Of a DNA stretch of 61,961 nt, positions 2,391 to 6,817 are shown in pieces; position 1 is the stretch's first letter; each line of letters opens with the position of its first letter. Source of the DNA: Clostridiales bacterium (GTDB taxonomy: Bacteria; Bacillota; Clostridia; Christensenellales; UBA1242). The notes below the pieces were generated by a model that saw only the letters and a list, made by a program, of their open reading frames with translations, was not told the origin of the DNA and did no database searches. The translations under genes were made by a program, and so were the position numbers. Location of the stretch: the NCBI GenBank assembly GCA_015055535.1, contig SVIA01000006.1:1-61961 (forward strand), written 5' to 3'.

Positions 2391-3440
2391 ATGAAAAAAA
2401 TAGTTTTTACAGGCGGCGGAACAGCCGGACACGTTATACCAAACCTAGCAATTATAGACGAGCTTAAAAATAAAGCCCAAATTTTTTATATTGGAAGCAA
2501 TGGAATTGAAAAAAATATTATTAAAGATAATAACATCAAATTTTACGAAATAACAAGTACAAAACTTAGAAGAACAATAAGTTTAAAAAATTTTTTAATT
2601 CCATTTAAATTATTAAAAGCATTTAAACAAAGTAAAAAAATATTAAAAGAATTAAAACCTGATGTTGTGTTTAGTAAAGGTGGTTATGTTGCTCTACCCG
2701 TAGTTTTAGCAGCTAAAAAATTAAAAATACCTGTAATTTGCCACGAAAGTGACTACACAATGGGACTTGCAAATAAACTTTGTAAAAACAAATGTACATA
2801 TGTTTGTACAAGTTTTGAAAATACAAGCAAAAGCTTAAAAAATGGGGTTTTTACTGGAAGTCCACTTAGAAAAGAACTATTTTTAGGTAAAAAAGAAAAT
2901 GCAAAAAAATTGTTTAAAAATTACCAAGAAAAGCCAACAATTTTAATTGTCGGTGGTAGTTTGGGTAGTAAAATTATAAATGAAAATATCATTAAAATTT
3001 TACCAAAATTATCAAACTTTAACATTATTCATTTGGTTGGAAAAAACAACCTAACTAACACTAAATTTGATAATTATGTAGAGTTAGAATTTAGTAATAA
3101 CATAGCAGATTTATTTAGTCTTTCTGACCTTGTTATTAGTCGAGCCGGAAGTAATGCAATATTTGAAATTTTAGCGTTAAACAAGCCTAATATTTTAATT
3201 CCACTATCTAAAAAAGCAAGCCGTGGTGACCAAATAATAAATGCAAATTACTTTAAAGAAAAAGGTTATAGTAAGGTTATTTTAGAAGAAGATTTAAATG
3301 AAACTACCCTACTTAAAACTATAGAAAACTTATGGAAAAACAAAGAAAAATATATAGAAAAAATGAAAAAATCACCCACAAAAAATGCTACTAATCAAAT
3401 TTGTGACTTAATAATGAAAACAACAACAAAAGCTAAATAA
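2391..3440 (+). CDS. murG: UDP-GlcNAc:MurNAc-pentapeptide-undecaprenol GlcNAc transferase (MurG)
   Basis: This 349-residue GT28 glycosyltransferase adds GlcNAc to lipid I to make lipid II on the inner face of the membrane. The N-terminal GGGTAGHVIPN loop is the MurG signature. The C-terminal half shows VGGSLGSKIIN and the UDP-binding stretch SRAGSNAIFEILALNKPNILIPL. Length is normal. The gene stands alone, divergent from the HipA-like kinase, rather than in a dcw cluster. No Shine-Dalgarno is visible; a poor -10 (TAAACT, 2379-2384) lies six bases before ATG, so it may also be leaderless, though no good -35 is seen. A bidirectional terminator follows at 3471-3498. Confidence 0.95.
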   Translation: MKKIVFTGGGTAGHVIPNLAIIDELKNKAQIFYIGSNGIEKNIIKDNNIKFYEITSTKLRRTISLKNFLIPFKLLKAFKQSKKILKELKPDVVFSKGGYVALPVVLAAKKLKIPVICHESDYTMGLANKLCKNKCTYVCTSFENTSKSLKNGVFTGSPLRKELFLGKKENAKKLFKNYQEKPTILIVGGSLGSKIINENIIKILPKLSNFNIIHLVGKNNLTNTKFDNYVELEFSNNIADLFSLSDLVISRAGSNAIFEILALNKPNILIPLSKKASRGDQIINANYFKEKGYSKVILEEDLNETTLLKTIENLWKNKEKYIEKMKKSPTKNATNQICDLIMKTTTKAK

Positions 3441-3469
3441 ATTCTTAAATTTAATTTAATTCACATTAA

Positions 3470-3498
3470 AAAAACCACAAATTTAAATTTGCGGTTTT
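3470..3498. terminator. Bidirectional intrinsic terminator
   Basis: The stem AAACC-A-CAAATTT / AAATTTG-C-GGTTT (one mismatch) is flanked by A and T runs on both sides. It lies between the convergent murG and lipoprotein genes and can serve both. Confidence 0.8.
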
Positions 3499-3505
3499 TT
3501 GTTTT

Positions 3506-4960
3506 TTACCATTCATATGTAACTGTATAAACAGCATTTTTATCAATAATATAATTTTCATTTGTGTAAGTTATATTAGAGAATGTTGCATTCTTAATTG
3601 TTGTACCATCTGGAATAGTTCCACTTCCGTTATATCCATTAACTTTAAATTTTATTGTACAACTATCATCTACATATCCCCATCGACTTAGATCGATGTA
3701 ACCATAGTGTTGATCTACAGGATTATCTCTATGAACAGTAATATTACTTGATAATGTTAATAATTTTCTATTAACAACAACTGATGTTTCACCATAAGGA
3801 TCTACTAAGTTATAAGCATCATCCATAATATTATTTAATTCTTCATGAGTTGTAGCATCAATTAAATAAACTTTTTTTGCACTAACATATCTATGTTCAT
3901 CAGAATATTCATGTATAGAAGCATTAATTATTTTATTTTCAAGATCATCTGGATCTTTTATAGTTACTATTACTTTAAGTTTTTTGCCTTCAATTATTCC
4001 ATGAGATGAATCATAAATTATTTCAAACTCATCTGTACCATCATATGTTTTACTAATTACAGTTGGTAGCTCTAAATTTAAAGGTTGTATCATACGCTCA
4101 CTTAAAAATGTAGGAGTATTTGCTAATTTATAGTTTGAATTAACTACTTTAATTTCAGGATTATTACTACTACTTAAATAATATTCTTTAACAGATGAAT
4201 GATCAACATCCCAGTATTTTATAATTAAATATAAACTTTCATTTGATAATCTGCCTTGCTCTTCAGTTATTTCTAAAACTTTATAATCAGATCCATCAAA
4301 AACTTTTTGCCAATAATTTTTATTAGTTCCAATTTGCTCGATTTTTCTTGGTGTAATTTTTACAGTTTTAGTACCAGTAAATGCTGCGTATCTTTCTGTT
4401 TCGGTTAAAGTTACAGACATTTCATAATCACCCACAACAGTTGGAGCTTCAGATAAAGCAACACCATCTTTATACCAAGTATAAGTTAAATTTCCATCTG
4501 AATTATTGCGTAATCCCTCTTCTACAGAGTATGGTTGTCCATCATAAATTTTATCTATAAAAACTATCATTGGTGTTATTTTGTCTTGTTCAAAAGTATC
4601 TGTACCGGCTTTACCACATACACAAGATTTTTTATAAACTGCTTTTGTTGTTTGTGTCGCAGGTGTTACTAAATAATCTGCATGCACTACCTTTTGATTA
4701 TAAACGTGAGCTTGTGAAGCCATTATATATTCACAACCTGTACATTTTTTCCAGTGATTATCATTATCTTGGAAATATTCTGATCCTTCTTCATGCCAAT
4801 CTGCATCTTTAGTATCCCCACAAGAACATTTATAAAAATGTTGATGTTCGTCATACGTTAGTTCTGTAGAAAATTCATGTTTGTGACCGCAGCCTGTTAG
4901 GAACGCTAAACAAACAAAAATAAATGAAACAATTGTTAATAAAATTTTGTTTTTATTCAT
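3506..4960 (-). CDS. Surface lipoprotein with Cys/His-rich module and YDG/MBG-like repeats
   Basis: This 484-residue protein starts with a lipoprotein signal peptide (hydrophobic segment, lipobox LTGC, residues about 21-24). Residues about 26-130 hold a Cys/His-rich module in two or three units, each running 'H..F..Y..HW.KC..C', for example HFYKCSCG, HWKKCTGC and KSCVCG, suggestive of metal-stabilised small repeats. The rest is beta-rich with bacterial Ig/MBG-like segments containing KIYDGQPY, VVGDYEMSVTL and KTYDGTDEF. Such proteins are usually surface-exposed in gut Firmicutes; binding partners are unknown. The start is supported by AAGGAG a few bases upstream of ATG. Expression is probably phase-variable because a run of nine G on the coding strand fills the promoter spacer (4996-5004). 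Confidence 0.8.
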   Translation of the reverse strand: MNKNKILLTIVSFIFVCLAFLTGCGHKHEFSTELTYDEHQHFYKCSCGDTKDADWHEEGSEYFQDNDNHWKKCTGCEYIMASQAHVYNQKVVHADYLVTPATQTTKAVYKKSCVCGKAGTDTFEQDKITPMIVFIDKIYDGQPYSVEEGLRNNSDGNLTYTWYKDGVALSEAPTVVGDYEMSVTLTETERYAAFTGTKTVKITPRKIEQIGTNKNYWQKVFDGSDYKVLEITEEQGRLSNESLYLIIKYWDVDHSSVKEYYLSSSNNPEIKVVNSNYKLANTPTFLSERMIQPLNLELPTVISKTYDGTDEFEIIYDSSHGIIEGKKLKVIVTIKDPDDLENKIINASIHEYSDEHRYVSAKKVYLIDATTHEELNNIMDDAYNLVDPYGETSVVVNRKLLTLSSNITVHRDNPVDQHYGYIDLSRWGYVDDSCTIKFKVNGYNGSGTIPDGTTIKNATFSNITYTNENYIIDKNAVYTVTYEW

Positions 4961-4989
4961 AATTTTCTCCTTTGAATTTTTTCAAAGCT

Positions 4990-5017
4990 ATTATACCCCC
5001 CCCCGCAATTTTGTCAA
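4990..5017 (-). promoter_or_regulatory. Promoter with poly-G (9) tract in the -35/-10 spacer (probable phase-variation switch)
   Basis: The coding strand reads TTGACA (5012-5017), a 16-bp spacer, TATAAT (4990-4995). The last nine spacer bases, directly upstream of TATAAT, are a G tract (nine C at 4996-5004 on the plus strand). One added G would give the optimal 17-bp spacing; loss of one gives 15. This is the architecture known from the porA promoter of Neisseria meningitidis. It is the only C/G run longer than five that I found in this AT-rich window. Confidence 0.85.
4996..5004. repeat. Homopolymeric C(9) tract
   Basis: Nine consecutive C on the plus strand, located between the promoter elements of the lipoprotein gene. 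Such mononucleotide runs are slipped-strand mutation hotspots. Confidence 0.95.
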
Positions 5018-5023
5018 CCAAAA

Positions 5024-5047
5024 AACTATATTTTTAAAAATATAGTT
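5024..5047. terminator. 24-bp perfect palindrome; terminator or operator
   Basis: AACTATATTTTT is followed directly by its reverse complement. On the minus strand it is followed by a T-run and ends six bases before the -35 of the lipoprotein promoter. It could be a second terminator behind sigK or an operator for the lipoprotein gene; the sequence does not decide which. Confidence 0.55.
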
Positions 5048-5088
5048 ACTACTCCTTTCTGACTGTTTTTATTTTATTGTGAATATTA

Positions 5089-5115
5089 AAAAAAAGAGTG
5101 GATAACTCTTTTTTA
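5089..5115 (-). terminator. Intrinsic terminator after sigK
   Basis: AAAAGAGT / ACTCTTTT stem with a 5-base loop and a T-run on the minus strand, overlapping the sigK stop codon. Confidence 0.8.
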
Positions 5116-5820
5116 ATCGATATAAAATTCCTTATTGTTTAGTTTTTGTCTTATTTCTTTCAGAGCTTTATTTTCTAAGCGCGAAATATAACTTCTGCTT
5201 ATTCCTAATTTTTTAGCAACTTCAAGTTGAGTGTATGCAGGTTTTCCATTCAAACCAAAACGCATACAAATAATTTGATATTCTCTATTTGATAAATTTT
5301 CTTTTAAAATTTTTAACAATTCTTCTGATAATATTTTTGACTCAACTTTTTGTGATAATTCATCTACATCATTACCAATAATGTCTTGAAGGGTAATTTC
5401 GTTACCATCTTTATCTTGCCCTAAACTTTCTTCAAGTGAATAAACACCATTATGTTTTTTATTAACTCTAAGAAGCATTAAAATTTCATTTTCTATACAT
5501 CTAGCAGCATAAGTTGATAATTGACTTCCCTTATTTAATTCATATGTATTTATTGCTTTAATTAAACCTATAGTGCCTACGCTAATTAAATCATCTGCCT
5601 CTCCTGCTTGAGAATATTTTTTTACAATATGAGCTACTAATCGTAAATTGTGATAAATTAGTTTATTTTTAGCCTCTTCATCATTATCTTCTTTATATTT
5701 TTTTATACATTCAAACTCTTCTTCTTGAGTAAGCGGATTTGGAAACCCACTACTTTTTTGAACAAAAGATGTAAAACACATAATTCTATTCAAAAAATTT
5801 ATAAAAGTTTCAGTTATCAT
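5113..5820 (-). CDS. sigK: SigK-like sporulation sigma factor
   Basis: This 235-residue sigma-70 family protein matches the sigma-K/sigma-E group. Region 2 reads HNLRLVAHIVKKY, DDLISVGTIGLIKAI and STYAARCIENEILM. Region 4 ends with an HTH, VAKKLGISRSYISRLE. The short hydrophobic N-terminus followed by FPNPLTQEEE lines up with the pro-sequence and start of pro-sigma-K rather than with sigma-E. Sigma-K drives late mother-cell genes during spore formation, so this gene is the main evidence that the organism is an endospore former. The ATG is supported by AAGGAAGG upstream. A CATATATT element about 20 bases further up resembles a sigma-E -10 box (CATAnAnT), but I could not match a -35. No skin-type interruption is present. 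Confidence 0.85.
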   Translation of the reverse strand: MITETFINFLNRIMCFTSFVQKSSGFPNPLTQEEEFECIKKYKEDNDEEAKNKLIYHNLRLVAHIVKKYSQAGEADDLISVGTIGLIKAINTYELNKGSQLSTYAARCIENEILMLLRVNKKHNGVYSLEESLGQDKDGNEITLQDIIGNDVDELSQKVESKILSEELLKILKENLSNREYQIICMRFGLNGKPAYTQLEVAKKLGISRSYISRLENKALKEIRQKLNNKEFYID

Positions 5821-5900
5821 ATATTTACCTTCCTTATGTGTAAATATATGAACTAAAATGTCGAATTTTGCTTGTCTAATAAAATTTTATTTTAAAATAA

Positions 5901-5930
5901 AAAAAGCCACCAATAACTTGGTGACTTATT
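5901..5930 (-). terminator. Intrinsic terminator
   Basis: CACCAA-taac-TTGGTG stem followed on the minus strand by a GC pair and a T-run. It ends the 81-residue membrane protein gene, separating it from sigK. Confidence 0.8.
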
Positions 5931-5931
5931 T

Positions 5932-6177
5932 TTAAGCCATTAAACTTGAAATCATTAGAACAATAAAAGCAATAACAACTAAAATTAATCCAACCACTTT
6001 TATTGTAATAAATATTTTATCATCTGGCATAATAAAATTTGTTTTTCTAATGGTTTTAGTAATTCTTTTAGCTAAACATATAATTGCTAAACCAATAGAA
6101 CCTAAAATAATAGAAGTTAAAAATTCTACTTTTGTTAATGTTTCAAGTAAAGTTACACCATTTAATAAATAATTCAT
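5932..6177 (-). CDS. Small membrane protein of unknown function
   Basis: This 81-residue protein has two hydrophobic segments, roughly residues 18-36 (FLTSIILGSIGLAIICLA) and 57-79, separated by a basic loop with KRITKTIRK. I do not recognise a family. The start is supported by TAGGAGAAG seven bases upstream. It has its own promoter and terminator, so it is a single-gene unit between pgsA and sigK. Confidence 0.7.
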   Translation of the reverse strand: MNYLLNGVTLLETLTKVEFLTSIILGSIGLAIICLAKRITKTIRKTNFIMPDDKIFITIKVVGLILVVIAFIVLMISSLMA

Positions 6178-6197
6178 AATCTTCTCCTAACATTGTT

Positions 6198-6226
6198 ATT
6201 ATATAACATTATTTAAAACTAGTCAA
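6198..6226 (-). promoter_or_regulatory. Promoter of the small membrane protein gene
   Basis: TTGACT (6221-6226), 17-bp spacer, TATAAT (6198-6203), followed by a normal leader with a TAGGAG ribosome-binding site. Confidence 0.8.
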
Positions 6227-6235
6227 TACCCAAAT

Positions 6236-6817
6236 TTAAGAAATTTGATTATTTTCATTATTAATTGTTTTAGAAACATTATTATAAAGCTTAAAAAATT
6301 TTACAACATATTGAATAATAGTTATTAAAACCAAAACCAAGGCTATAATAACCAAAATTAAATCTACCGGAGCAATAATATTATGTAAAAAACAACTAAA
6401 TAAAGCTAAACTCATAAAAACTGTTGTTAATTTCCCAACAATATTTGCTTGAATTACAATTCTTTTAAAGTATAAAATGCTTCCTGTTATTATAGAACCA
6501 AAATCTAAAACTAACAATATTATAAACAAATATAACGGCAAAACATTATTAATCATGAATGCACATAAAACACACAATCTTAAAAGCTTATCTGCTAAAG
6601 GATCTAAAACTTTTCCAAGAGCCGTTATATTATTAGTACTTCTTGCAATGTACCCATCTAATATATCCGAAAAAAAAGCCAGCAAATAAATTAAAATTGC
6701 CCACAGTGGAAAACCATTATAATAAAATGATTTATTTAAATATAAAACCATAAAAATTGGAATTAAAATAATTCTAAAAATAGTAATTAAGTTTGCAACA
6801 TTCAAATTTTTTCTCAT
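6236..6817 (-). CDS. pgsA: CDP-diacylglycerol--glycerol-3-phosphate 3-phosphatidyltransferase
   Basis: This 193-residue membrane enzyme makes phosphatidylglycerophosphate, the committed step to phosphatidylglycerol. The CDP-alcohol phosphatidyltransferase motif is complete: DILDGYIARS, then GKVLDPLADK (D-x2-D-G-x2-A-R ... G-x3-D-x3-D). Several hydrophobic segments surround it. The open frame extends to 6937, but the extra 40 residues contain no family feature. MRKNLNVANLITIFR at 6817 is the usual PgsA start. The ATG lies 10 bases downstream of a good -10 box with no Shine-Dalgarno between, so the predicted leader is only about four bases. Confidence 0.92.
   Translation of the reverse strand: MRKNLNVANLITIFRIILIPIFMVLYLNKSFYYNGFPLWAILIYLLAFFSDILDGYIARSTNNITALGKVLDPLADKLLRLCVLCAFMINNVLPLYLFIILLVLDFGSIITGSILYFKRIVIQANIVGKLTTVFMSLALFSCFLHNIIAPVDLILVIIALVLVLITIIQYVVKFFKLYNNVSKTINNENNQIS

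Follow-up and report, generated by a model that had tools for sequence, protein, structure and literature searches.

The DNA analysed here (the window) is a stretch of 61,961 nucleotides from contig SVIA01000006.1 of a Clostridiales bacterium (order Christensenellales in GTDB), and its minus strand carries a gene for a 484-aa lipoprotein (Table 1). The product has a plain lipobox (FLTGC), three YDG-like motifs (YDG/FDG, identified by eye) as in stalk-like surface proteins and the cysteine/histidine motifs CSCG and CTGC. It matches no Pfam or NCBIfam family above the cut-off (Pfam YDG is weak only, E 0.19), and no full-length relative is present among 58 related genomes. An earlier note on this DNA had described a surface protein; the lipobox agrees with this description, while the location at the surface is a prediction. 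The stem-loop between the lipoprotein gene and the upstream sigma-factor gene (RNA fold −6.4 kcal/mol, z −1.8; not picked up by the terminator scan) is a possible terminator; if it acts as one, the lipoprotein gene would depend on its own promoter. The perfect inverted repeat CTTTGAAAAAATTCAAAG overlaps the ribosome-binding site and is probably cut by the transcription start; as an RNA switch it was rejected, its fold from near the predicted start being no better than that of shuffled sequences (z −0.23). Elsewhere in the window, 1292-2302 encodes a protein with a weak match to the HipA C-terminal domain, below the Pfam cut-off.

Table 1. Features of the lipoprotein gene and its upstream region (window coordinates).
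Feature	Position	Strand	Basis or remark
484-aa lipoprotein gene	3506..4960	-	lipobox; ORF start MNKNKILLTIVSFIFVCLAFLTGCG
Ribosome-binding site AAAGGAG	4967..4973	-	sequence
Perfect inverted repeat	4970-4987		overlaps ribosome-binding site
Predicted transcription start	~4983	-	inferred from spacing
-10 box TATAAT	4990..4995	-	consensus match
G9 tract, candidate slippage element	4996..5004	-	1 of 2 runs >=8 in genome
Conserved spacer heptamer AAATTGC	5005..5011	-	sequence shared with second copy and relatives
-35 box TTGACA	5012..5017	-	exact consensus
AT-rich stem-loop, then T run; possible terminator of sigma-factor gene	5025..5046	-	RNA fold
Sigma-factor gene	5113-5820		upstream of lipoprotein gene

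The promoter, TTGACAAAATTGCGGGGGGGGGTATAAT (5017-4990, minus strand), lies 29 bp upstream of the ATG at 4960 and is the sole 12/12 match to the sigma-70 consensus within 3300-6300. Its TTGACA and TATAAT boxes are separated by a 16-bp spacer whose final nine bases are all G, exactly as the earlier note had claimed. The layout likened there to that of porA is real, in that the homopolymer sits between the -35 and -10 boxes, the position that porA-type spacer-repeat promoters require. The heptamer AAATTGC between the -35 box and the tract was absent from that note, and may mean that a regulator or the copying of a cassette takes part.

A nine-base G run is out of keeping with DNA of this composition (25.4% GC in the window, where no other G run exceeds 5). 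Under a first-order Markov model, runs of at least 9 are expected 0.004 times in the window and 0.07 times in the 942-kb genome, both strands counted. The genome contains exactly two G runs of at least 8, each of them 9 long and both within one type of promoter, so that the run is indeed as exceptional as had been supposed. At nine bases it also reaches the length, about 8 G or more, from which slippage is to be expected. The second run (contig C8:31893-31901) is again embedded in a promoter, TTGACAAAATTGCGGGGGGGGGTACAAT, which is identical to that of the window at 27 of 28 positions, has the same heptamer and lies ~30 bp upstream of another lipoprotein gene (232 aa, MSGC lipobox; Pfam Big_3, E 2.6e-7). 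A search upstream of other lipoproteins, which the earlier note had suggested, has therefore uncovered the same promoter before a second gene. The two lipoproteins are not homologous, and outside the 28-bp promoter the flanks agree at 27 of 60 positions on either side, where composition predicts 22.5 and 24.6. Two unrelated lipoprotein genes thus share a 28-bp module.

Similar promoters recur in related genomes, which are referred to by our own labels (G011, etc.). A loose pattern (TTGACA, 3-11 bases, at least six G, 0-6 bases, TANNNT) is found in 24 of 59 genomes including the present one (23 of 58 others), with no match in a reversed-pattern control; a stricter pattern occurs in 4 of 248 other genomes sampled evenly from the phylum. 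The core TTGACANAANTGCG6 is present in 14 of 309 genomes of the family, distributed over five genera and with up to 19 copies per genome. Searching a collection of ~85,000 species for the exact sequence TTGACAAAATTGCG6 gave 16 stretches, a count that may leave out records of the window's own genome; they belong to metagenome-assembled genomes (MAGs) of uncultured Clostridia, one to an ‘uncultured Christensenella sp.’ and one to a low-coverage bin of unclear identity. The association between tract and -35 box is also evident from the tracts themselves: exact TTGACA precedes 11 of 16 G runs of at least 8 in G011, 10 of 12 in G013, 3 of 4 in G016, 3 of 5 in G018 and 11 of 21 in G053, where chance would give less than 1% per run. 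The heptamer AAATTGC is found in G092, G101, G140 and G296 as well, and AAAATGC in genus g12.

Two further observations concern individual copies. Locus L244 (JAJZFJ010000001.1, minus strand; a low-coverage bin of uncertain identity) combines the exact core with a G10 tract and TAGAAT; the gene downstream encodes a small, cysteine-rich exported protein. At five loci of G011 (L103, L105, L112, L115 and L117) a long palindrome containing the -10 box (TAAAATgaccttgcaaa...tttgcaaggtcATTTTA) follows directly after the promoter; such copies, sometimes with no clear gene behind them, resemble a dispersed promoter-plus-hairpin element.

Genes behind these promoters encode mostly exported products: 43 of 54 called genes were classed as exported, compared with 23 of 270 other genes in the same loci, by a simple rule of hydrophobicity and lipobox that makes surface location a prediction. 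The enrichment is strong (Fisher p about 1e-26, paralogues not being independent). Within genus g12 nearly all copies with a callable gene precede members of one paralogous family (MKKKTKLIGAIFALCLSVCMLTVGVLAAS...), at whose start there is a weak, below-cut-off likeness to sortase-dependent surface proteins (NF053819). Some downstream products in g34 contain BspA-type leucine-rich repeats, and several in G053 and G022 are lipoproteins. The exception is G013: of its 7 called genes behind the promoters, 5 did not fall into the exported class. Linkage of the tract to a particular protein family was considered and rejected, since in G011 and G004 the second lipoprotein has homologues without the G tract.

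The tract lengths, read from MAG consensus sequences in which homopolymer lengths carry some error, are 7-10 in the relatives and rarely 15-18. In G011 the heptamer is AAAATGC in 13 of 13 copies, although any prefix was allowed in the search, and the tracts take seven forms (7, 8, 8, six of 9, 10 and three interrupted). With the heptamer fixed and the tracts varying, it is in the tract that an otherwise conserved element varies most. In G101, promoters on two contigs carry G8 and G9, respectively, and are otherwise the same over 201 bases (the 13-bp core, 69 bp upstream of it and 119 bp on the downstream side); further upstream they diverge, which identifies them as distinct loci. Among 25 pairs with related flanks, 13 differ in the tract. 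For the 79 copies with a recognizable -10 box, the spacer measures 15-17 bp in 63 and 14-17 bp in 67, the outliers being 11 and 18-25 bp. The longest tracts, G15 in G022 (L207), G17 in G018 (L138) and G18 in G053 (L145, spacer 25), are expected to inactivate their promoters. The comparison of lengths among related genomes proposed in the earlier note was therefore divided in its outcome: tracts vary in the relatives, whereas both copies in the window's genome (one genome of the genus compared) are G9.

We consider it likely that the G9 tract is a slippage switch of the porA/vlp kind in a sigma-A type promoter, one of a set that serves surface proteins. Slippage during replication would add or remove single G residues and so shift the -35/-10 spacing from 16 bp. 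Promoters of the sigma-70 type work best with spacers near 17 bp and lose strength at 15 and 19. Because the spacer is now 16 bp, gain of one G should raise expression and loss of one should lower it; a 17-bp spacer is predicted to be stronger, whereas 15 or 14 bp would weaken the promoter or turn it off. Cells within one population would then make differing amounts of the surface lipoprotein. As the module precedes a second lipoprotein gene and, in relatives, sets of exported proteins, it may serve the whole lineage as a means of mixing its surface coats. Phase variation at the window locus is what we infer from comparison within the lineage; the model further supposes that slippage is the cause, that transcription responds, that the change is reversible and that lengths vary within the species. 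Against a slippage switch count the identical length of the two own copies and the intact MutS and MutL, both encoded within the window, which may make slippage slower here than in relatives deficient in mismatch repair. That the cause is a loss of this repair is accordingly rejected for this genome; a search of ten genomes found both proteins missing in G053 alone, whose G18 tract is the longest seen. The heptamer also speaks against a pure spacing switch, which would not need it, and further points against the model are the G013 genes outside the exported class, the tract-free homologues in G011 and G004 and the error in homopolymer lengths taken from MAGs.

The heptamer would be accounted for if AAAWTGC together with part of the G tract were the operator of a dedicated regulator of surface genes, tract length drifting because the tract is only partly read. 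Such a regulon promoter agrees with the invariance of the heptamer in G011 and in both copies of the window's genome, and with the same invariance in the copies of G066, G068, G070, G092, G101 and G140 that have a recognizable -10 box (where the search required it); moreover, the heptamer occurs apart from a G tract in the window's genome no more often than chance near-matches. We nevertheless regard it as unlikely. G013 and G053 have the G tract directly before the -10 box with unrelated heptamers, so that the shared feature is the tract and not the heptamer, which itself has no dyad symmetry, and tracts of 15-18 shift the spacing far outside normal promoter tolerance. A combination of the two readings, a dispersed 28-bp cassette in which a regulator site AAAWTGC and a slippable G tract control many surface proteins of small-genome Clostridia, each gene tuned by its own tract and all jointly by one regulator, can be put forward only tentatively.

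Copying of a promoter cassette with its gene family, by recombination or gene conversion, would make the G tract a passive passenger whose drift is inconsequential. Copies in G092, G101, G016 and G066 do have flanks in common besides the core, and many contigs break off within about 90 bp of a copy (in G140 for 6 of 7 copies and in G067 for 5 of 5), as expected for dispersed repeats or for mixed lengths in the reads. In the window's genome, however, two unrelated genes are involved and the resemblance stops with the promoter itself; elsewhere the tract keeps its place beside unrelated heptamers, and neutral drift of the spacer is not to be expected in promoters of the sigma-70 type. We judge passive copying to be improbable, more so than a dedicated operator. 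An artefact of sequencing or assembly (dark-cycle poly-G or a wrong homopolymer length) comes to mind since the named relatives with the element are MAGs, in which such lengths are error-prone, yet intact promoter boxes flank the tract on either side, and the same position recurs in MAGs from independent projects and is absent from the reversed control, which makes this explanation extremely improbable.

A slippage-tuned promoter thus remains our preferred reading, and the recurrence of G-run promoters of varying length suggests, as far as sequence comparison can tell, that coats are varied by gain or loss of single G residues. If true, uncultured small-genome Clostridia diversify their surfaces with as many as ~19 promoters of this kind in one genome. 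Promoter-slippage switches in the literature reviewed come from Neisseria, Haemophilus, Bordetella, treponemes and mycoplasmas; the open-licence literature contained no report for Christensenellales, nor of a G tract in a promoter spacer in clostridia.

The closest known system is porA of Neisseria meningitidis, in which a one-base change in a poly-G spacer alters transcription (PMC3899988, PMC7864442) and the optimum spacing is given as 17 (PMC7864442). Both promoters have poly-G between the -35 and -10 boxes, a surface protein as product and a spacing near 17 bp. Unlike porA, the present promoter has a perfect TTGACA as its -35 box, a conserved heptamer before the tract and a host among the uncultured Clostridia; in some relatives many genes per genome use the module. 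In Mycoplasma hyorhinis a poly-A tract in the promoter switches every vlp lipoprotein gene, one tract per gene (PMC10502178). Homopolymer tracts in promoters of surface lipoprotein genes are common to both systems, but the tract is poly-A in vlp and poly-G, within AT-rich DNA, here; a homologous lipoprotein family of the vlp type can be rejected on the same ground and because the two lipoproteins of this genome are unrelated. Treponema pallidum tprL and related genes have poly-G tracts of at least 8 and of variable length near promoters of putative outer-membrane proteins, whereas in tprL the tract overlaps with the -10 region, leaving the -35/-10 spacing unchanged (PMC7864442). The promoters described here probably belong to the porA-like slippage-tuned class, and are new in host and scale, not in principle.
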